In this document: piece by piece, positions 2,858 to 26,149 of the stretch
Layout of the letters: every line of letters begins with the position of its first letter
How positions within the stretch are numbered: the first letter of the stretch is position 1
Source: Bryobacterales bacterium
GTDB taxonomy: Bacteria > Acidobacteriota > Terriglobia > Bryobacterales > Bryobacteraceae
Reading direction: 5' to 3'
Length of the DNA stretch: 37,472 bases
Assembly: GCA_003167275.1 (NCBI GenBank)
Contig: PMTT01000161.1
Span: forward strand, 1 to 37,472
Program-made: the position numbers and the translations under genes
Notes under the pieces: generated by a model
Database searches by the model: none
Told to the model about the DNA's origin: nothing
What the model saw: the letters and a program-made list of their open reading frames with translations, nothing else

Positions 2858-4882
2858 TTAGAAGATCCTCTGGTGTACGCGATCCACCGAGAACTCCTCG
2901 CCGGCGCTATGGCAGGCTGCGCAGCTCTCGCCCAGGACCGTCGTGTTGGCAAGGGCGTGGGAAGCGGTGGCCACGTCGTCGTGGCAACCCTGGCAGGCGG
3001 CGGAGATCGGAGCGGTGGTCTTGGTGAAGCCGCCGGGGCTGGCTACCATCGCCTTGGCGCCGACATTCTCTACCAGGTAGGTGCCGGTCATGTGGCACGT
3101 GGTGCAGTCGCGGAGGTCGCCCGGGAACCGGACGTCCTGGTAATTGGTGGTCCCCAGCACGTACGGGTTGGCCAGGGCATCGCCGCGGTGGATGCTGTGG
3201 ATTTGGACGGGCATGTCCACGCTCTGGCCTGAAGTGCCATCCGTCAGGGCAGGATTGTGGCAGATGGTGCATTCCTGGGTGGCAGCGCGGGTACCGCCGT
3301 GGACGAATTCCATATTATTGTGGCAGGACTGGCACTTCGCAACGTCCACCACTGTGCGCCTCGGCGCCGTGGCGCTTTTGTCGACCGAGAAGTAGAACTC
3401 CACCGGCTTGGCGGCGTCCACCGCCGTCGTCGATTGCTGCGTGTTCGGCATCAGTGTGACGGTATTGGCGGCTTCGATGGAGATCGTATAGGAACCCGTC
3501 CCAGCGGCCGGGATCTTGTTGGTCATGGTGTAGACGTACACGCCATTGTTGCCCTGCAGCGTGGCGGGGGGCGTTTCGGAAACGCGGATTGCGCCCGGCC
3601 CAGTGTTGTAGTCGGTGTTCGGGCCGCCCAGAACGATGCGGATGGAGCTGATTTTGCTGATATCGACCGGCGCGCCGGCCTTGTTCTGCACGCTGAACGT
3701 GACCACGGGTTGGCTACCCGGCACAGCGTTGGTGACCTTCATCACCGCGGTAACCAGTCCGGGGAGCGACGTCGAGTTCATGGGGATCAAGTGGGCGCCG
3801 GAGACCGAAGCATCGAAATCGTGGATGGCGTCCGGAGTATGGCAGCCCTTGCACTGGTTGTCATCGGGCTCCGGCAGGTTGACGTGGTTCACGCCGGTGG
3901 CGAAATTCACGTCGTCATGGCAGGAACCGCATACCGCGCGGCTGGGATTGGTCTTATAGTTGGCGGCTTGCGTGGCGGCCGCGGAATGGCAGGTAGTGCA
4001 ATTCCGGACGTCCTGCGGGAAGACGACTGTGGAGAAATCCGACCATGCACCGCGATGCCAAACGCGATACGGAGTCCCGGCTATGACGCTGGGCAGGCTC
4101 GATCCCATATGGATCTTGTGGACCATAACCTTCATATCCATGGTGAGCCCGGTATCCGGGTTGATGGTCTGGGGCGTGTGGCACATGATGCAGAGTTCCA
4201 CTTCCAGGCGGGATCCGCCGTGGCCGATCAGCGGGTCATGGCACTGGTTGCATGCCGCGGTGGTCACCACCGAGCGTGTCACCTTCACAGGGGTACCATT
4301 CGGAACGAAGTTGAAGACGTCGTTGGAGGTCTCGCTCCATTCGTCGAAGGTGCCGAACTCGGCGAGATTGCGCTGCGCGGAGACGCCGATCGAGTGGGTC
4401 GCCGTGGAATCGAAGGTGGTGGGGGCCTTGGTTTTGAACGTGTAGGTATAGTCACCCACCGCATTGGTGGTGAACGTGCCACCGGAATCGTTGGCGGCCT
4501 GGACCTGCGAGGGGTTGCTATTCAACGTAGCAGCGGCGACGGAGGTGGTGTAGGACACGTACTGGGACTGACCGGCCGGGATGTACGCGGCGATGAAACT
4601 GAGGGAGACCGGACCCTTGGTGGCCACGCCCAACCGGTCCAGAGGGATGTTGTCAGAATCCACAATCGTGGCACGGACAGTGATGGTGCCGTCTTTCGCT
4701 ATGGCGGCGCTTTGGATTTTCACCACAACACCGGTCTTCCCGAGGGAAGTAGTACTGCCATTGAGCCTGGCAGTGGCCGCAAAGTCCACGGTTGGTTTGA
4801 CCCGGTGGTCGTCGGCGGATGCGATGTTGAATAAAACTACAGGGGCTAGGGCAAGTAGAGCACTAGCCAGGTACTTTCTCAT
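2858..4882 (-). CDS. OmcA/MtrC-family decaheme c-type cytochrome
   Basis: 674 aa with signal peptide and ten CxxCH motifs (CNQCH, CIMCH, CTTCH, CGSCH, CKGCH, CQSCH, CTICH, CTTCH, CQGCH, CAACH), spaced as two pentaheme groups separated by a beta-rich stretch. Confidence 0.88.
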   Translation of the reverse strand: MRKYLASALLALAPVVLFNIASADDHRVKPTVDFAATARLNGSTTSLGKTGVVVKIQSAAIAKDGTITVRATIVDSDNIPLDRLGVATKGPVSLSFIAAYIPAGQSQYVSYTTSVAAATLNSNPSQVQAANDSGGTFTTNAVGDYTYTFKTKAPTTFDSTATHSIGVSAQRNLAEFGTFDEWSETSNDVFNFVPNGTPVKVTRSVVTTAACNQCHDPLIGHGGSRLEVELCIMCHTPQTINPDTGLTMDMKVMVHKIHMGSSLPSVIAGTPYRVWHRGAWSDFSTVVFPQDVRNCTTCHSAAATQAANYKTNPSRAVCGSCHDDVNFATGVNHVNLPEPDDNQCKGCHTPDAIHDFDASVSGAHLIPMNSTSLPGLVTAVMKVTNAVPGSQPVVTFSVQNKAGAPVDISKISSIRIVLGGPNTDYNTGPGAIRVSETPPATLQGNNGVYVYTMTNKIPAAGTGSYTISIEAANTVTLMPNTQQSTTAVDAAKPVEFYFSVDKSATAPRRTVVDVAKCQSCHNNMEFVHGGTRAATQECTICHNPALTDGTSGQSVDMPVQIHSIHRGDALANPYVLGTTNYQDVRFPGDLRDCTTCHMTGTYLVENVGAKAMVASPGGFTKTTAPISAACQGCHDDVATASHALANTTVLGESCAACHSAGEEFSVDRVHQRIF

Positions 4883-5143: not shown

Positions 5144-5174
5144 CCGTGGGGCAGGTCGGTGACCTGCCCCACGG
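5144..5174. repeat. Palindromic repeat (REP-like)
   Basis: ccgtggggcaggtc-ggt-gacctgccccacgg, a perfect 14-bp inverted repeat just downstream of the beta-barrel gene stop. Confidence 0.8.
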
Positions 5175-5182
5175 GTTTCTCC

Positions 5183-7387
5183 TTAGAACGACCACAAGAC
5201 GCTGGTGTAGCCTGTGTGCGCGTGATAGTCCTGGTCGTATCCCAGAATGTGGAATTTTTCCCCATACCCATAGAACTGGTATCCCGCGTTCCAGCGGAAT
5301 TTGGGCGTGATCCTGATCGAAAGCCGCGCCAGTGGCGATTGGTAGGTCAGCGGAAAGGTCTGCACCGAAGTGAGCAGCACTTGGAGGGGATCGGTCACCG
5401 TGGCAGGCACCGCCGTGGCGCGGCCGTCGCCCGTATCCTTTGTGATGCTGTATCCCAGGTACAGATCCGCGCGCTTCCCGATGCCCCAGCGGATTCCTAA
5501 ATTGGCCCCGTGAATGTTGCTTACAAACTCCGAGGAGTCCCCCCTCTGCAAGGTGGACCGCCCCCCCACCGGCCCGGCGAAGAAGGCCAGGCCGTCCATG
5601 GTGTCCAGGTGCAGCTTGGTGTAGCTGGCATCGATCGAGAACCAGTCCTTGGGAGCCCACGACGCGTTGGCGCTGTACTGCCGGGAATGCGAGCTGAAGG
5701 TCGAAAACGAGAGCGGCGGATTCAAATCGTACACCTGCCGGTAGGTCGTCGAAAGCTGCAGCCGCTTCAAACGGTACTCCACACGGCCGTTGATCGCGTG
5801 ATAGTTCTTGTCGCTGATGGGCGTCAGCGGATGGTAGGCCCGTGCCACTTCGCCGCCCAGGTTGATAGTCAGCGCGGCCACCGGCTTGATGCGGACTCCC
5901 GCCGTCCCCGAGTTGACGTGATTCGACACGTCGAACTGGAAGGCGCCAAATGAATTGGCAAAAGCCGGGACCGCGGAGCCATCGATCGTGCGAATATGCC
6001 GGTCGGAATAGTGGTATCCGCCGTAAAAGCCAATCCATTTCTTCACCCGGTAATTCACATCCGTGGAGTTGGTCAGGGTGAGGATCCCCAGGTATTGGAA
6101 ATAGATAGTGGTGCCCAGGTTGGTGCTGGGGTTGACCTCGGAGTAACTGGAATTGCCGTCGATGCGGTTGCTCGAGATGGAGCTGTTATTGACCACGGTC
6201 AGGCGCTCGGTGGGGAACAGGCTGAGACTGAAGTCTCCTGCCAGGTCGGGCCGGTTCGCCTGGCCGCCGACCACGATCTGCCGGCTTCCGGCTCCCCCGA
6301 ACTGGCTGATGCCCATGACCGATTCGTCCAGGGCGAAATCGCTGCGGCCGCTGGTATAGGTCACGCGCGCGTTCACCCCCCAGCGCTTCCGCCGCGTGAA
6401 GAGATTGCCCAGCCATCCCGAATTAGAGCCATGGATCGGGTTCGAGCGTTGGAACTGCTGCACCACGGTCTGGTCGATTGGCGTTCCGGCAGCGAAGACT
6501 CCCGCCGAAGTGAACGGCGTGTCGTCTTTGAAAAAATCCCAGCGGCGCAGCACCGTGAGCTTGAACCCGGCGAAGTCGGCGTCCGCCCCCAGCCGGTATT
6601 CGTTCCATTGGCGGCGGACATTGCTGAATACGGGGTAGGCCGAGCCGGCGGCGTCGAACTCCAGCGCGGTGGAGAGCGCCGGACCGTCCTCGGTGTCGCG
6701 GCTATATCCCAGGTTGAACCGGATCTTGGATTGGGGCAGCAGCACCAGGTTGTGGTCCTGGAGGCGGCGGGTGGTATCCATGAGGTGCTCTCCGCCAGCG
6801 ACCGTCAGCCCCGGATTGTAATAGGCGTTCAGCCTCCAGGTCATGTCGTAGCGGTAGAGGTTGTTCTTCTGGATGCGCAGCACGGCGGCCTGGTAGTTGT
6901 CGTTACCCAACCCGATCGTGTTGAGCAGAATCTCATCGAACCAGCGGCCGTGACCGTCCTTCGAATTGATGGTGAAGTTGCTTCCCAGCAGGCGGAGGCC
7001 GTTGCCGATGTTATCCACGCTGCGGTACATCCCTTCATCGCCGCCCACGGACTTGAAGCGGTATCCGAATTCGAACGACTGGGTCACGTTGTAGTCGCCC
7101 ATCGAATCGCCGCGAGGGGAGCCTGTCGTATCCGGGGTCGGCCCCACTACCTGCTGGGCGGCCAGAGTGCCCGCCGTTACCAGGAGTGCAGCGAGGAGTG
7201 CGACCTTTGTGGGGCAGGATGGTATCCTGCGCGCCGGTTGGCAACCGGCGCAAGGAGGCCATGCGCACACGTCAAAAGGCGGGTTACCAACCCGCCGCAG
7301 GTTGCCAACCTGCCCCACAAAGCGGCAGATCCGCCCCACCCGGGCGCGTGGCAATACAGGTCGGCTCTTCAAGAATGTGTTCAGCAT
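5183..7387 (-). CDS. Outer-membrane beta-barrel (MtrB/PioB-like porin) associated with decaheme cytochromes
   Basis: About 734 aa from ATG at 7387 (MLNTFLKSRP...). Alternating aromatic/hydrophobic beta-strand pattern, C-terminal ...HTGYTSVLWSF ending in F; lies between two decaheme cytochrome genes. Confidence 0.7.
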   Translation of the reverse strand: MLNTFLKSRPVLPRARVGRICRFVGQVGNLRRVGNPPFDVCAWPPCAGCQPARRIPSCPTKVALLAALLVTAGTLAAQQVVGPTPDTTGSPRGDSMGDYNVTQSFEFGYRFKSVGGDEGMYRSVDNIGNGLRLLGSNFTINSKDGHGRWFDEILLNTIGLGNDNYQAAVLRIQKNNLYRYDMTWRLNAYYNPGLTVAGGEHLMDTTRRLQDHNLVLLPQSKIRFNLGYSRDTEDGPALSTALEFDAAGSAYPVFSNVRRQWNEYRLGADADFAGFKLTVLRRWDFFKDDTPFTSAGVFAAGTPIDQTVVQQFQRSNPIHGSNSGWLGNLFTRRKRWGVNARVTYTSGRSDFALDESVMGISQFGGAGSRQIVVGGQANRPDLAGDFSLSLFPTERLTVVNNSSISSNRIDGNSSYSEVNPSTNLGTTIYFQYLGILTLTNSTDVNYRVKKWIGFYGGYHYSDRHIRTIDGSAVPAFANSFGAFQFDVSNHVNSGTAGVRIKPVAALTINLGGEVARAYHPLTPISDKNYHAINGRVEYRLKRLQLSTTYRQVYDLNPPLSFSTFSSHSRQYSANASWAPKDWFSIDASYTKLHLDTMDGLAFFAGPVGGRSTLQRGDSSEFVSNIHGANLGIRWGIGKRADLYLGYSITKDTGDGRATAVPATVTDPLQVLLTSVQTFPLTYQSPLARLSIRITPKFRWNAGYQFYGYGEKFHILGYDQDYHAHTGYTSVLWSF
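7206..7321. repeat. 116-bp composite palindromic element with 13-bp inverted ends, inside the beta-barrel ORF
   Basis: Ends TTTGTGGGGCAGG / CCTGCCCCACAAA; internal palindromes gccggttggcaaccggc, ggcgggttaccaacccgcc and gcaggttgccaacctgc. Confidence 0.8.
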
Positions 7388-7392
7388 CGTGG

Positions 7393-8355
7393 TTATCTCA
7401 GGAAAAACTGGTCGGAGTTCGATCCGTGTATGCGCACGTGGCAGGTGGTGCATCTTTGATACTTGGGATCCAGCAGATTGTGCCGCGACGTCTGCAGATC
7501 CACGCCCAAGCGGCGGGTTCCCTCCGCTCCGCCGTTGTGGCACTCCAGGCAAACCGTGAACACCACTGGCCTCCGCAGCAACTTGGCGTTCATCGAACCG
7601 TGCGGATTGTGGCAGGCCTCGCAGCCCTCCACCTGCACCGAAGGATGCTCGTAGACGAACGGCCCGCGCTTATCCACGTGGCACTTCAGGCAGGGCTCTT
7701 CGTTCCCCAGCGCCTGCTCCACCATTCGGGGACGCTGGCCCATGCTCCACGTGGCCGCGAATGCTCCGTGCGGGTTGTGGCAATCGGAACATTGCATGAA
7801 GCCCTCGTTCACGCGGTGCTTGGAGGGCATGTCGAATTGCGCGCGAATGGTGGCGTGGCAGGTGTAACAGAGCTCGTTCTGCTTTTTGGCCAAAAGATAT
7901 TTGGGCGTCGGCGAATGGTGAATCGAGTGGCAGCTCGTGCAGGCCACGTCATTCAGGGTGTGCTCGGACCGCCGGATGTTGGCCCGCGCCAGATCGCGCG
8001 CATGGCAACCCAGGCAGTCTTCCAGCACCTGTTTCGGCTCCATGAGCGAGAATGCATGCGGGATGCTGGCCTTTCCGCCTCGCGCCGCTACATGCGCCTG
8101 GGCGGGCCCGTGGCAGCCTTCGCAGCCGGTGCGCTCCGCGGTTTCCTTTCCGGAAGCAATGCTCTTATAATGCGGATTCTTGTAGAAGTTGAGCCACACG
8201 TTCGGGTGGCAGGTCTTGCAGACTTCGCTTCCCGTGTAGCCGTTGGTGGCCGCGGGAGGCGAGGTCGCCTGTGGTACGGCGTTCTGGGGTTGCGCGTGCG
8301 CAACGCTGGTCAGCAGAATCAGGAGTGGAAGGGCTTGAACGCCCGCGCGTGCCAT
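7393..8355 (-). CDS. DmsE/MtrA-family periplasmic decaheme c-type cytochrome
   Basis: MARAGVQALPLLILLTSVAHAQ signal peptide; ten CxxCH motifs (CKTCH, CEGCH, CLGCH, CTSCH, CYTCH, CSDCH, CLKCH, CEACH, CLECH, CTTCH); GYTGSEVCKTCHP and CHNPHG motifs. Confidence 0.88.
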   Translation of the reverse strand: MARAGVQALPLLILLTSVAHAQPQNAVPQATSPPAATNGYTGSEVCKTCHPNVWLNFYKNPHYKSIASGKETAERTGCEGCHGPAQAHVAARGGKASIPHAFSLMEPKQVLEDCLGCHARDLARANIRRSEHTLNDVACTSCHSIHHSPTPKYLLAKKQNELCYTCHATIRAQFDMPSKHRVNEGFMQCSDCHNPHGAFAATWSMGQRPRMVEQALGNEEPCLKCHVDKRGPFVYEHPSVQVEGCEACHNPHGSMNAKLLRRPVVFTVCLECHNGGAEGTRRLGVDLQTSRHNLLDPKYQRCTTCHVRIHGSNSDQFFLR

Positions 8356-8395
8356 ACTCAAAATGATACTGGAGCGCAGGACGGACTGAATCGAA

Positions 8396-12438: not shown

Positions 12439-12524
12439 AACCGAGCCGCGACCGTGAGGGAGCGTTGCCCCAAGGCGGAAGCATCAGCCACGCCAAAACA
12501 CTCCCTTACGGTCGTGGCTCGGTT
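12439..12524. repeat. 86-bp inverted-repeat element (MITE/REP-like)
   Basis: Arms aaccgagccgcgaccgtgagggag (12439-12462) and ctcccttacggtcgtggctcggtt (12501-12524), 22/24 complementary. The right arm recurs at 37438-37459. Confidence 0.75.
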
Positions 12525-12645
12525 GCGGCTGTTGCTGATTCAGCATGAGTTACCGAGCCGCGACCGGGGTACCCCTGTTAGGGGTCCGGGGCGGTGTTGA
12601 CTGGTGAGGAATCTCCAAAATAGTTAAGCACCCACATGCGGCCTG

Positions 12646-18207: not shown

Positions 18208-18334
18208 CGTAGGGTATGCTTTAGCTTGCCCAGCCAAAAAACGGAACATCATTGAAGGGCTACCATTTGGGGATAATATGAAGATCTTGTCGGGATTTCC
18301 TCTTATGTCTGGGCAAGCTAAAGCATACCCTACG
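18208..18334. repeat. 127-bp element with 26-bp perfect terminal inverted repeats (MITE-like)
   Basis: cgtagggtatgctttagcttgcccag (18208-18233) and ctgggcaagctaaagcataccctacg (18309-18334); the core 25-mer recurs at 28745-28769. Confidence 0.85.
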
Positions 18335-20296
18335 CTGCTCGCTCTGGTCCTCTCGGCGGTTGCCCTGTCCGCGGCCGACCGCGACGCGGGCGAGTGGGTG
18401 ATTCGGAAGGGCGGGCGGGTGATGGTGAACGGCGGCCGCCAACCCATCGCCCGGCTCGCTGACCTGCCCCAGGGTGACGTGAGGATCACCGGAGTCGATC
18501 TCACCGGGACCGTCCTGGATCCCAAGGAACTCGAGCATCTGGCTGGCCTGTCCGAGGTCCACGAACTCTATCTCCCGGGCTCGGCCTTCACCCCGGGCGC
18601 GGGCAGCAAACTGGAGGGCAACGCTGAATTGAAGGTGATCGCGGGCATGACCAGCCTCGAGCGCCTCCAGTTTTCGCTGCACTTCCTTCCCTATTTCAAT
18701 GTCACCGACGACGGGTTCGCGAACTTCAGCGGCTTGACCAACCTTAAGGAATTGCGCTGTACGCAATGCCGGATCGCCCGGCAGGGCCTCGCACCATTCG
18801 TGAACCTGGAATCGCTGGACATGAGCTACTCGATGTTCGGCGATGCCGCGATGGCCAGCCTTGCGGGAATGAAGAATCTCCGGCGGCTGTACCTGCGCGA
18901 CACCAGCGTCACCGACGAGGGCCTGAAACAGATCCGCGGCCTCACCCGGCTCGAAGAGCTGGATCTCTACGGAGTCAAGGTGACCGATCGCGGCATGGCA
19001 TCGCTCGCCGACCTGAAGCAGCTTCGCAAGCTGATTCTGCTGGGGGCGCCCATCACCGATGAGAGCGTTCCGATCCTCGCCTCGATGACCCACTTGCGCG
19101 AGTTGAACCTCTATCGCAGCCACATCACGAACTCCGGCCTCGCGAAGTTGGCGGCGCTCCACGACCTCAGCACCGTGGACCTGCGTTACAGCCGGGTGAC
19201 GTCTACGGGCGTGGAAGCGCTGCGCGCGGCCGTTCCTACCTGCGAGATCGAATTCGCGGGAGTGCCGTCCGCATCCACCGGGGCTAAGGCGGCGCGTCCG
19301 AAAGGCTCCGGGGATAAGGCGCTCGGGGAGTGGGTCGCCTCGCTGGGCGGCAAGACCGTGTTCGTCCAGGGCCGATTGCGCGAGGTTTCGCTCGCCGCCA
19401 CGCACATCGGTGATGCTCAGGTGGCGCCCCTCGCCGCGGCGGGGTCGCTGGAGAAACTAAATCTGGAAGCGACCGAAGTGGGCGATCTCGGCCTGCAGTC
19501 CCTCGCGCGCCTGAAAAGCCTGAAAGAGCTGAATCTCGGCTACACCACGGTTTCCGGCGCCGGTCTCGATCCGTTGGCGGCCCTGCCGAACCTCCGCGTG
19601 TTGAAACTGGCCGGCACGCAAGTCAAGGGTTCGGGGCTGGCGCATTTGCGGGGCTTGAAGTTCCTGATGGAACTGGACCTCAGCGCGTGTCCCATTTCGA
19701 ACGAGGGCGTCGGGAGCATCGTCGCGCTCACGGGCCTGGAGCGCCTTTCGCTGAGCGGCTCCGATATCACCGACGCCGCCATCGAGGAGTTGGCCAACCT
19801 GCCGGTGCTGAAGGCGCTCGACCTCAACAGCACCGATATCGGCGACGCTGGGCTTCGCCAACTCGGCACAATGGTCAATCTGCGCGATCTGCGCCTCAGT
19901 TACGCCCGCTTCACCGACAAGGGCTTGAGCGCGTTGAAATCGCTGACCCGCTTGCAGCGTCTCGACCTGGTGCGCACGCGCACCGGGGCTCTCGGTATTG
20001 CCACCATCGCCACGTTGCGGAATCTGGAGGAGCTAAATCTGGACTACACGGCGGTGGATGCCAAGAGCTTCGCCTTGCTACACGGTATGCCGCAGTTACA
20101 AGAGCTTCATCTGGATTCCGCCGATATCGGCGACGAATCCATCGAGGTGCTCTCCTCCTTGCCTAATTTGCGCGAAGTGAATCTCTACCACACGCTGTTC
20201 ACGGAGGCCGGTGTGGCGCGGCTGAAGCAGGCGCTGCCGAAGTGCCGGGTGATTTGGGATCGGGACTCGGCGCGGCCATTGCGCAGGAAGACATGA
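18278..20296 (+). CDS. Exported leucine-rich-repeat protein
   Basis: Many LxxLxxLxLxxTxITDxGL repeats. Starts ATG 18278 ([34 protein letters not shown]) or ATG 18305, both inside the inverted-repeat element. Confidence 0.82.
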
Positions 20297-21342
20297 CGGG
20301 ACCAGGCAAATGTTGTGGGGCGGACCCCCTGGTCCGCGCGGGTCCCCCCGGACCCGCGTTTGGCACTGAACTCAACATCCGACCCGCGGCAAGAAGGCCG
20401 ACGAGGGCGTCGGCCGCGGACCAGGGGGTCCGCCTCACGAAGCTAAGGAACATTGTTATACCGTGCTGGTTGGCGACCTTCACTCTCGCCTCGGTTGCTC
20501 TGGCGGCGGACCCCGCGTGGATCGAACAGGCGGGAGGCTCGGTGACTCGCGATGCCGCCGGAAAGATCGTCGCCGTGGACCTGCGTTCGAGCTGGGTCAC
20601 CGATTCCGACATGCCACTCCTCGCCCGGATGACGGACCTTCAGCGGCTCGATCTCACGCTCACGCGCATCTCCGACCGCGGCCTGCGCGCGCTCAAGTCC
20701 GCGCCGGCGCTGGAGGATCTCAATCTGTGCTTCGCGGAGCAGATCACCGACGAAGGTGCCGCGGTGGTCAAAAACTGGCCGCATCTCAAGCGACTGAATC
20801 TGCGTGGGACCAAGATCACGGATTCGACCCTGGAGTTCCTTGCGGGCGTGCCGAGGCTCGAATGGCTGGACATCGGCTGGGCGCAGATCACCGATACCGG
20901 GTTGGAACACCTGTCCACGCTCACCAACCTGCGATGGCTGGCGATGGGCGGCAACAAGCTCACCGACACCGCGCTGCAGTTCCTCCGTACGATGCCGCAA
21001 ATCGAGTATCTCGACCTGGGTGGCGCGCAGCGCACCGATTCCGGACTGTGGTCACTCGCGATCACGCGCACGGGCCTGCGGGCGGTGGGGTCGGTGACGG
21101 AGTTGCGTGAGCTCTCGTTGGCGGGGACTGTGGTGAATGCGCAGGGATTGCAGGAACTGAAGGCACTTGCGAAGCTGGAGCGATTGAATTTACAGGGATG
21201 CCGGCAGTTGCGCGACGATGCGGTGGGCGTGCTAGCGAGCTTCAAACAGCTTCGGGTGCTGGATGTGAAAGATAGCGGCATGACGGTGCAGGGCGTAGAG
21301 CGGCTTCGGGCTGCGCTGCCGGAATGTAGGGTGCTTGCTTAG
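20293..21342 (+). CDS. Second exported leucine-rich-repeat protein, translationally coupled to the first
   Basis: ATGA overlap (20293-20296); signal core [20 protein letters not shown]; LRRs [37 protein letters not shown]. Confidence 0.8.
20319..20434. repeat. 116-bp element with 20-bp perfect terminal inverted repeats
   Basis: ggcggaccccctggtccgcg (20319-20338) and cgcggaccagggggtccgcc (20415-20434). Confidence 0.82.
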
Positions 21343-22572: not shown

Positions 22573-22651
22573 GGCATTCTTGCCTGTGTCGGTTTTTTTT
22601 GCGCCACTGCAGATCTCGTGCAGAAGAAAAAGCAACACAGGCAAGAATGCC
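22573..22651. repeat. 79-bp inverted-repeat element
   Basis: ggcattcttgcctgtgt (22573-22589) and acacaggcaagaatgcc (22635-22651), 17-bp perfect arms. Confidence 0.75.
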
Positions 22652-22674
22652 AGGCAAGAGTGCCCCGTGCCACA

Positions 22675-24012
22675 TCACGCAACGATCTCCCCCATCTTCT
22701 GGGACGCTGTGGGGAACTTTCCCAACCCGGCGCCCATGATCTCATCCGCCACCGTCAGGTACAGGTCGCCGACCGTCCCCATCACACGCGAGTGCACCCC
22801 AGTCTTAAGCTTGGGCAAATGTCCCGCCACGATCATCGCCAAGCCGCTGCACTTGTGCGGATTGGCCTCCGCATGTTCGTGGGCGTACAACAGGCAGCAA
22901 TGGTCCAGGACCGTGCCGTCGCCTTCCGGAATCGATTTCAGCTTTCCCAGCAGGTACGCAAACTCCTCCACGTGCCACCGGGTGATGTCGCGGAGAATCC
23001 GCTGGCCGTCCACGCCGTCGCCGTTGGGCGCTTTGCCATCGGCGTGCGTGTAATCGTGATGCCGCGCGGCAGTCAGCCCCAGCCAGGGGAAGCGCGCCAA
23101 ACCTTGGCCCTTCGTCAGCATGTAGGAAGCCACGCGCGTCTGCCGGGTCACCAGAGCCTGCGCAAGCAGATCGCTTTGCAGCTTCGCGATCTGCGGCCAA
23201 TCCTTCATATCGCCGTCATAGTCGGGCGGGTCGAGCCGACGGTACTGGGTGGGCAACCCCTCGATGCCGCGCTCCACATCGCGGATCGCTGAGAGATGTT
23301 CCTCCACGCGCGCCGCGTCATCCTTGGGAACTTCCTTTTGGAGCGCCAGCGCGTCCTGGCGCACCGCGTCGAGAATGCTGCGCTTGCGTTTCACCCAGCC
23401 TTCTTCGCGAGCTCCGAAGAGGTAATCGAACAGCTTGTTCGGCAGCATCTGCGGCGGTAGAGGGCGGTCGTACCCGGCCCAACTCATATTGCGCTGAATG
23501 CTCTCGCCGAACGACTCCTGCGATACGCCGATCTGAATCGAGCTGAAGCGTGACTGCCGGCCGATCCTGGCCGCGATGGCCTGGTCGATCGAGGGCCCAC
23601 CCGCGCCGTGGCCGGTGAACGGCGTGCAGGTGGTAACCCCGCTGATCGCTTTGTGGTGGCCGTTGCCGGGGCCGGAAACATTGGCCGCCTGGTTATCCAG
23701 ACCGCTGAGCACATGAATGTCGTTGCGGAAGGGCGCTAGCGGCGTAAGGCACGGCGAGAAGTGAAAATCGGACCCAGTCTCCGTGGGAATCCAGTACCGC
23801 TCCGGAATGCCGTTGCCGTTGAACCAGAAGACGAAGCGGCTCTCGATGGGCGTTCCGAGGGTCTCGGCCGCCGCGGCGTAGGCCGTCCCGTGCGAGTTGA
23901 ACATGCTGACCAGCGGCGGCAATCCGACCCGAATCGCACTGCCCGCCAGGGTAATGCCTTTCAGGAAACGCCTGCGCGACACTCTGGGGCGCTTAGTGAT
24001 TACGTGCGGCAC
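22675..24012 (-). CDS. DUF1552-family protein with Tat-like signal
   Basis: [80 protein letters not shown]. Confidence 0.82.
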
Positions 24013-26149
24013 TGGCCTGTCCTCCTTCGGCCGGGACTTCTCTGGCCCGCGACATCGCGGCCATCATGGCCACCATCATATCCTGAAAGCGAAAGCCCGA
24101 TTTTCGAAACTCTTCGAAGACTCCGCGAATCAGCGGCCGGTCGGCCGGCGTCTCCATGCGGCCCGCCACGTAGCGGAAATACTGCTTGACGATGCATTCC
24201 TGGCATTGCGGGCTGCCGGCCAACACAGCGCCCAGTTCCTTGGGCGAAGCGAACGCCGAGTTCGGAAGCCCGGCCACCTGTCCCTTCGTATCGAGGTCCA
24301 CTTCCACCGTCGAGATCTTTCGTTTAGGCTCTTTGCTCTCTCCGACCACCTCGCCGAACGTCAGCGTCAGCCGGTCGCGCCGCTGGCCGATCGCGTCGAA
24401 CTTCTCGAACCCGAAACCGATCGGGTCGATCAGGTCGTGGCAGCCCGCGCAAGTCCGGCTGGTGGTGTGCATCGAAAGCCGGTCCCGATTGCTCATGGGC
24501 TTCGCCTCGGTGACCGGCGGCAGATTGGTGTTCACACCCGGCGGCGGATCGGAGACGTGCTGGCACAGGAACTGTTCCCGCACAAACAGCCCGCGCGCGG
24601 TGGGTGAAGTGTCGTCGGGCTTAGCGGTCATGGCCAGAAACAGCGCCTGGCCGAGCAGTCCCGCGCGCTCCGACCCGGCGGGAAACGCAGTGCGCTCAAA
24701 GTCGGCCGCGGGCGGCTCCACTTTGTAGATCCGCGCCAGGTCGCCGTTCATGTAGCCGTATCCGGCGGTGAAGATCTGTGTGAAGTCGCGGCCGTTCCAG
24801 ACCAGGTCGGAGACGAAACGCCGCGCTTCTTCCGTCATGGCGAGAGCCGTGCCGGCGTTGAACTGCGGGAATGCGCGCCGTTCCTTGGCGGCGGTCAAAG
24901 CGCGGTCGAACCGCAGCCACTCCGCAACAAACTCGTCGAGTGCCTCTTTCGCTCGGGGATCTTCGAGCATGTGGCGCGCGATTTTCTCCACTCCCTGTGG
25001 CGTATCGAACTCGCCGCGAGCGGCGGCGGCCAGCAGCGCGTCGTCCGGCATGCTGTCCCAAAGCGCGTAGGAAAGCCGGCTGGCGGCGGCATAAGGGCGC
25101 CACTTCGGGTTGCCGGTGTCTTCCAGACGGAACAGGAAGTTGGGCGATTGCAGCATCACCTCGACGCCGAGTTGGGCTCCAGCGAGAAAATCCTGCTCCT
25201 TCCGAAACAGTGACTCGTAGCGTTGCAGCTCGGCAGCCTCCAGGGGTCGGCGGAATGCCTTCAGGCCAAAGCTCCGGATGAACTCGGTGCGGCAAGAGGC
25301 TGAAGGCTGGCACGCCAGGAGCGCGGCCACGCCGGTGTTGGCGCCCTTCGAACCGGCATTCCGGAAAGCCCGCTTCGCGAGTTTCTCCGCCGCGGCGCTG
25401 TAGGCATCTTCGAGCAGCGGCGAAAGGTTCTGAGCCGCGTACTGGTTCTTGAAACCGTTGACGAAGTCCTCGGGCGGAAACTGGCTGGCCGGCAGACTGT
25501 TGTCGCCCAACAGATCGCGCACGGTGTGGTTGTACTGGCTATGGGTCAACCGGCGAAGTGCCACGGACACCCGCTCCATGCCTGCCCCCGATGCCACTTC
25601 TTCCCGATAGCGCAACGCCGCCGCCAGTTCGTCGCCCCGGAGCAGCACGAGCCGGTCAATCCAAGCGCGCAATGCCGTCTCCTGCGGACTGCCCGGCGGA
25701 ATACGCTGCCCGCCGGCATGCGCCACGCGCGCAGTTGGCTTGCGAAGCAGTAGCGAATTTGCCGGATTGTGGGCATCGACCAACACGACCAGGGATTTCC
25801 CGAACGCGTCGATCCGGTTCGCGGCCGCGCCCGGCTCCGGGAATTGCAGGCGGGTAGCAGAGGCGACACCATCGGGATTGTGACAGTTGCGGCACCCCGC
25901 CTCCTCGAAGACGGGATAGACCGTCTTCGAAAAGGGATCCGTCTCCGCCGCAATCATCACGACCGCGAAGACGCCGAACACGCAGATGGGAAGCTTGGCC
26001 AAGCGTTTGTGTCCATTATATGTGTACCGGGGATGCGCTGGGTTGGTCCTGGTGCTGCTGGTGCTGGTGCTGGTGCTGGTGCTGGTGCTGGTGCTGGTGG
26101 GACAGGCGGTTCCGCCTGTCTCGCCCGCTTGCGGGCGATTTCTTCGCAA
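23993..26149 (-). CDS. DUF1587/DUF1592/DUF1595/DUF1588/DUF1585 protein with c-type heme motifs; start uncertain (TTG near 26002 is plausible)
   Basis: [99 protein letters not shown]. Overlaps the downstream DUF1552 start. Confidence 0.82.
26051..26100. repeat. Hexanucleotide tandem repeat (GGTGCT)n
   Basis: ggtgct gct followed by six uninterrupted ggtgct copies (26060-26095). Confidence 0.9.
26101..26137. repeat. Two adjacent palindromes (REP-like)
   Basis: gacaggcgg-tt-ccgcctgtc (26101-26120) and cgcccgc-tt-gcgggcg (26122-26137). Confidence 0.75.

Follow-up and report, generated by a model that had tools for sequence, protein, structure and literature searches.

Repetitive extragenic palindromes (REPs), REP doublets (REPINs) and palindromes that are read as protein, like those of Rickettsia, are all known already. 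The canonical REP tag is the tetranucleotide GT[AG]G (PMC6006769). In the described systems the tag stands 5' of a hairpin, an inverted doublet of REPs folds into one hairpin, copy numbers are high, and the genes for REP-associated tyrosine transposases (RAYTs, or TnpA-REP) are flanked by the same REP that is dispersed elsewhere (PMC6006769, PMC3116915, PMC3733652). Rickettsia palindromic elements (RPEs) are mobile palindromic repeats of about 100-150 bp that lie in frame in unrelated protein genes (PMC10969869). The GTAG and CGTC REPs of Proteobacteria also contribute REP-encoded stretches to open reading frames, often near the N-terminus, though the N-terminal cases were mostly judged non-coding (PMC3733652).

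We analyzed a window of 37,472 nucleotides from a member of the Bryobacteraceae (genome G000), the source being a fragmented 11.5-Mb MAG assembly. An intact gene of 734 codons is found at positions 5183-7387 on the minus strand, with its start codon, homologous to the start in relatives, at 7385-7387. Upstream of it is a DmsE/MtrA-type decaheme cytochrome c (7393-8361, minus strand; TIGR03508) and downstream an OmcA/MtrC-type decaheme cytochrome c (2858-4882, minus strand; TIGR03507), and because decaheme cytochromes flank the gene on both sides we assign the cluster to the mtrCAB type. The first-pass annotation of this DNA had called the central gene a beta-barrel gene. Operon context agrees with that reading, but a search for membership in the MtrB/PioB family returned no NCBIfam match up to E = 10, no Pfam match and no PDB-profile match. 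Since the putative barrel identity of this 734-amino-acid protein comes solely from its operon context, we name it only "MtrB-like". The putative barrel is conserved across the family yet has no Pfam, NCBIfam or PDB model, and may represent an undescribed family of barrels for extracellular electron transfer.

A palindromic element interrupts the 5' part of the mtrB-like gene. It had been described before as a 116-bp element with inverted ends whose kind was left unidentified; the palindrome is real and so are the inverted ends, but the element is 118 bp in length (7205-7322), and we now identify it as a REPIN. The inverted arms at 7205-7231 and 7296-7322 are 27 nt each and 89% complementary, with a perfect outer 14 bp. 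As had been reported, the element is free of stops and in frame on the minus strand, flanked there by MLNTFLKSRPVLPRARVGRICR and KVALLAALLVTAGTLAAQ. It follows the start codon and precedes the signal peptide's hydrophobic core (VALLAALLVTAGTLAA; 7157-7204, minus strand); cleavage of the signal peptide is predicted to leave a mature N-terminus near AQQVV. At least three internal palindromes had been claimed, and we found four hairpins, two in each half. Each half is a double-hairpin REP with a GTGG tag (GTGGGGC) at the hairpin foot, and the halves are inverted about a spacer. The first REP (7278-7318, minus strand) carries the hairpins GCAGGTTGGCAACCTGC (7297-7313) and GGCGGGTTGGTAACCCGCC (7278-7296), and the second (7209-7251, plus strand) carries GCAGGATGGTATCCTGC and GCGCCGGTTGGCAACCGGCGC, so that the order in the orientation of the gene is GTGGGGCAGGTTGGCAACCTGC-GGCGGGTTGGTAACCCGCC-spacer-GCGCCGGTTGCCAACCGGCGC-GCAGGATACCATCCTGCCCCAC. 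Folded as single-stranded DNA, the inverted pair forms one long hairpin (z = -8.1), and none of 200 shuffles did as well. When 15 REPs were aligned, 99% of the cells of hairpin 1 were paired, with strong covariation that was equaled in 0 of 500 shuffles. Immediately beyond the gene's 3' end is a single short palindrome (GTGGGGCAGGTCGGTGACCTGCCCCAC, 5146-5172), which does have the end sequence in common with the element (GTGGGGCAGG/CCTGCCCCAC), as noted earlier. The element, like nearly all full copies, has five of its six reading frames open. We rejected the idea that this reflects selection for coding, the probability at the given base composition being 0.10 for one copy.

Comparison with orthologues, which the first-pass annotation had proposed as a check, revealed a clean in-frame insertion. 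In the closest orthologue (G001, 83% identical protein) the homologous ATG lies a few bases past the dmsE stop and is followed by the leader MLKPIFLLVAAVGALDAQQ; the orthologues of other relatives have equally short leaders and an ordinary signal peptide, with no repeat. From the ATG to a conserved CAGCAG there are 51 nt in G001 versus 77 codons (231 nt) in the window gene. The excess of 180 nt (60 codons) is a multiple of three, and comprises the 118 nt of the REPIN core and about 60 nt outside it, mostly 5' of the core. This 5' part (about 50 nt, with approximate limits at 7323-7372, minus strand) is likewise absent from orthologues and gave no clear match among the repeats compared; it contains one GTGGGGCGGATCTGCCGC motif and is possibly a decayed REP. 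Both flanks of the insertion are syntenic with relatives. The eight codons that separate the element from the hydrophobic core (AAG GTC GCA CTC CTC GCT GCA CTC) include no ATG, GTG or TTG, and the n-region is therefore at least partly encoded by the element, whichever start is used. The earlier proposal that the precursor has a long n-region made of repeat DNA is thereby supported, the precursor being 60 codons longer than its closest orthologue. As judged from its sequence, the inserted stretch is strongly basic.

The element belongs to a dispersed family. The REP unit has 57 exact copies in its own genome, as against none for a reversed control pattern, indicating that it is no chance palindrome. 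Matches to the element in that genome number at least 99, with 40 of 154 first-look candidates scored. The core was present in 7 of the 61 genomes searched, all seven within the same family. Copies are mainly extragenic: 33 of 44 sites in the element's own genome are outside called genes, and 16 of the 44 are just 5' of start codons, a position that the first-pass annotation had suggested counting.

In the sister genera G002, G016 and G021, a RAYT (Y1 transposase) gene is bordered by the same REP. Inverted copies stand on both sides of the RAYT at G002:C37 (its longer query match includes one in-frame stop), and the REP is adjacent to the RAYT genes at G021:C155 and G016:C296. The G021 protein passes the NF047646 model (REP-associated tyrosine transposase) and matches TnpA-REP (PDB 4er8). 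The association surfaced only through the sister genera and a RAYT protein query. We found no intact cognate RAYT in the element's own genome, only fragments at contigs C39 and C427; the family may have ceased to move in this genome, or an assembly gap may hide the gene. The single Pfam Y1_Tnp match in that genome has no REPs nearby. By its tag, fold, high copy number and RAYT association, the element is a REPIN, a non-autonomous mobile DNA that a REP-associated tyrosine (HuH/Y1) transposase would move. Two other features of RAYTs were observed in this group. The broken RAYT at G000:C427 lies between inverted REPs of the GTGGGGCGGACC type and appears to be a decayed REPtron. Other RAYTs in the sister genera come with double hairpins of their own, tagged GTGGGGC, GTGGCGC or GTGGAGC; Bryobacteraceae RAYTs thus have diverse tagged double-hairpin REPs, each gene its own, and offer material for the study of RAYT-REP co-evolution.

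Copies of the REPIN are also read in frame in other, unrelated protein genes, as RPEs are. We count ten confident in-frame copies in two genera, admitting a copy if the stretch from the repeat to the protein's conserved part holds no start codon, or if coding sequence was scored on both sides. Six are placed just before a signal-peptide hydrophobic core, and the rest are in linkers, a loop and a tail. In the window's own genome an outer membrane efflux protein (OEP) reads MKLTKY-element-TLTLISISFLLIQALSAQ and an amidohydrolase-cyclophilin fusion reads element-QIVFLLALTLPLSAQ, both before the hydrophobic core; in these two genes as well there is no start codon between element and core, and orthologues start upstream. 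Four further proteins of this genome contain a copy: an ABC-F protein (in a variable-length linker, the protein exceeding its G001 counterpart there by 18 residues), a membrane/TPR protein (in a loop), a 4Fe-4S protein (in the C-terminal part) and a TonB_C protein (in a linker). Copies in G021 stand just before the hydrophobic core of a DUF4861, an FG-GAP/ASPIC and a GH97_N protein. Translation of these three could begin at a TTG within the element, and the start would then still come from the repeat. Several other copies near N-termini in G021 and G016 were rejected as coding, since a start codon lies downstream of them, before the conserved part. In G001, the orthologue of the amidohydrolase that bears the REPIN carries another palindromic repeat within the n-region of its signal peptide. 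In a REP-preceded gene at G000:C784 the signal peptide and the body are in different frames, one base apart, reflecting a frameshift or an assembly error.

Other palindromic families occur in the window. The CTTTAGCTTGCC family (18208-18379) is more abundant, with 65 copies of a 12-mer in 0.63 Mb, and it gives a leucine-rich-repeat gene (18305-20293, plus strand) its start codon and a 10-residue n-region directly before a 13-residue hydrophobic core. In another leucine-rich-repeat gene (20242-21339, plus strand), a second RAYT-type REPIN (GTGGGGCGGACCCCCTGGTCCGC, 20315-20438) precedes the hydrophobic core in frame, and no start codon separates the two; RAYTs flanked by a REP of this type are found in G002 and G031. 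Two more dispersed palindromic families are represented at 12439-12566 (CGAGCCGCGACCGTGAGG type), which adjoins two Y1 transposase genes in sister genera, and at 22573-22665 (GGCAAGAATGCC type). The called N-terminus (29 residues) of a gene at 23996-26149 on the minus strand includes a palindrome, GACAGGCGG...CCGCCTGTC (26040-26130), and a short tandem repeat, and is followed by a hydrophobic stretch.

To assess placement, we compared repeat positions with uniform expectation. The placement figures are approximate, because gene calling relied on a simple hexamer model and signal peptides were recognized by a simple hydrophobicity rule. The unselected sample was 0.6 Mb of sequence not chosen for the REPIN family, with the window excluded, and consisted partly of the remainders of copy-bearing contigs. 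Of its 105 repeat clusters (all families, at least 20 bp), 94 were intergenic versus 21 expected, 7 were in gene bodies versus 67, and 1 was in a signal-peptide n-region where coding is forced, versus 1.7. For the REPIN family itself, outside the window, 5 of 83 sites were in n-regions versus 1.33 expected (P = 0.012), and 4-8 sites were in gene bodies versus about 53 expected. Gene bodies are thus purged of repeats about tenfold, and n-regions tolerate them, a pattern that requires no targeting. Most likely nothing directs repeats to signal peptides: the unselected sample lends no support to such a preference, its single n-region case being no excess over uniform placement.

The findings allow other readings, which differ in what the repeat does and how it moves. 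If it belonged to a 5' leader, with translation starting downstream and the element serving as a non-coding or regulatory hairpin, the strong RNA fold of the region (z = -4.4) and the sites just 5' of starts would fit, and Di Nocera et al. regard most REPs at 5' ends as non-coding (PMC3733652). That reading is nonetheless quite unlikely, given that the mtrB-like gene offers no start between element and hydrophobic core, and that its orthologues start upstream of the insertion point, as do those of the efflux protein and the amidohydrolase. The first-pass annotation had held that repeat-free orthologues starting downstream would count against a translated element; those we found start upstream, at the homologous ATG by the dmsE stop. 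A translated n-region could in turn be functional and selected, a basic leader or an mRNA hairpin that tunes targeting or expression. Its recurrence before the hydrophobic cores of six unrelated proteins, the similar placement of two further palindromic families in the window and the basic character of the insert are consistent with such a role. The copies, however, are read in frames that differ between genes and therefore encode different peptides, orthologues manage without the insert, and n-regions hold no excess of repeats in the unselected sample, making selection for function very unlikely.

The remaining alternative concerns the mobilizer: a DDE transposase may move the element, which would then be a classical MITE and not a REPIN moved by a RAYT. 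In favor of this, the core in G021 lies between longer imperfect inverted arms (CTATAGAGGCTCGCAAAATACAGTGAC / TATTGAGACTCGCGAAATACGGTTAC). But copies in the window's genome end at GTGGGGC...GCCCCAC, the same REPs bound RAYT genes, and inspection by eye found no consistent target duplication, so that we regard a MITE as highly improbable.

The explanation that we favor as a whole, and think probable, is that a REPIN was inserted in frame in the signal peptide and that the n-region is a coding safe harbor. Following established knowledge of REPINs and of the Sec pathway, a RAYT would have placed the REPIN, in frame and free of stops, after the start codon but ahead of the hydrophobic core. The ribosome would read through it, and the precursor, with peptides such as VGNPPFDVCAWPPCAGCQPAR, would have a long and basic n-region encoded by the repeat. 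The Sec machinery would still recognize the intact hydrophobic core, and signal peptidase would cut away the whole leader, leaving the mature protein unchanged. From this we infer normal export and cleavage and a nearly neutral insertion, one that selection would tolerate because the leader is discarded and the mature protein is unaltered.

Whether n-regions in general are a coding safe harbor in repeat-rich acidobacteria, open to REPINs and to other mobile palindromic repeats, we consider evenly balanced. Several families would then insert in frame, supply charges or even start codons, and continually remake leaders without touching mature proteins. The proposal gives a concrete reason why some coding DNA can tolerate mobile repeats, namely that the segment is translated and then cut off. 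It also carries a warning for gene callers: in such genomes an exported protein may have its start codon within a repeat or ahead of one. The signal-peptide safe harbor appears not to have been described previously; a literature search, itself incomplete, located no paper joining REP or MITE insertions to signal peptides.

Set against the described systems, the gene cluster has the row of DmsE/MtrA-type decaheme cytochrome, putative barrel and OmcA/MtrC-type decaheme cytochrome that is typical of mtrCAB or porin-cytochrome conduits, but with a barrel that matches no Pfam, NCBIfam or PDB model. The element shares with REPINs and RAYTs the tag, the inverted doublet, the copy number and the flanking of RAYT genes. 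It differs in having two tandem hairpins per REP, in a genome without an intact cognate RAYT, and in copies that form in-frame parts of proteins, several of them within signal peptides. Whereas the N-terminal REPs of Proteobacteria were mostly judged non-coding, here there is no downstream start and coding is forced. With the RPEs we claim a likeness in behavior, not kinship. Our element is found in another phylum, consists of RAYT-associated REPs and recurs at one kind of site, immediately ahead of the signal-peptide core; with it, coding palindromes are known beyond Rickettsia, in a RAYT-associated family of the Acidobacteriota.
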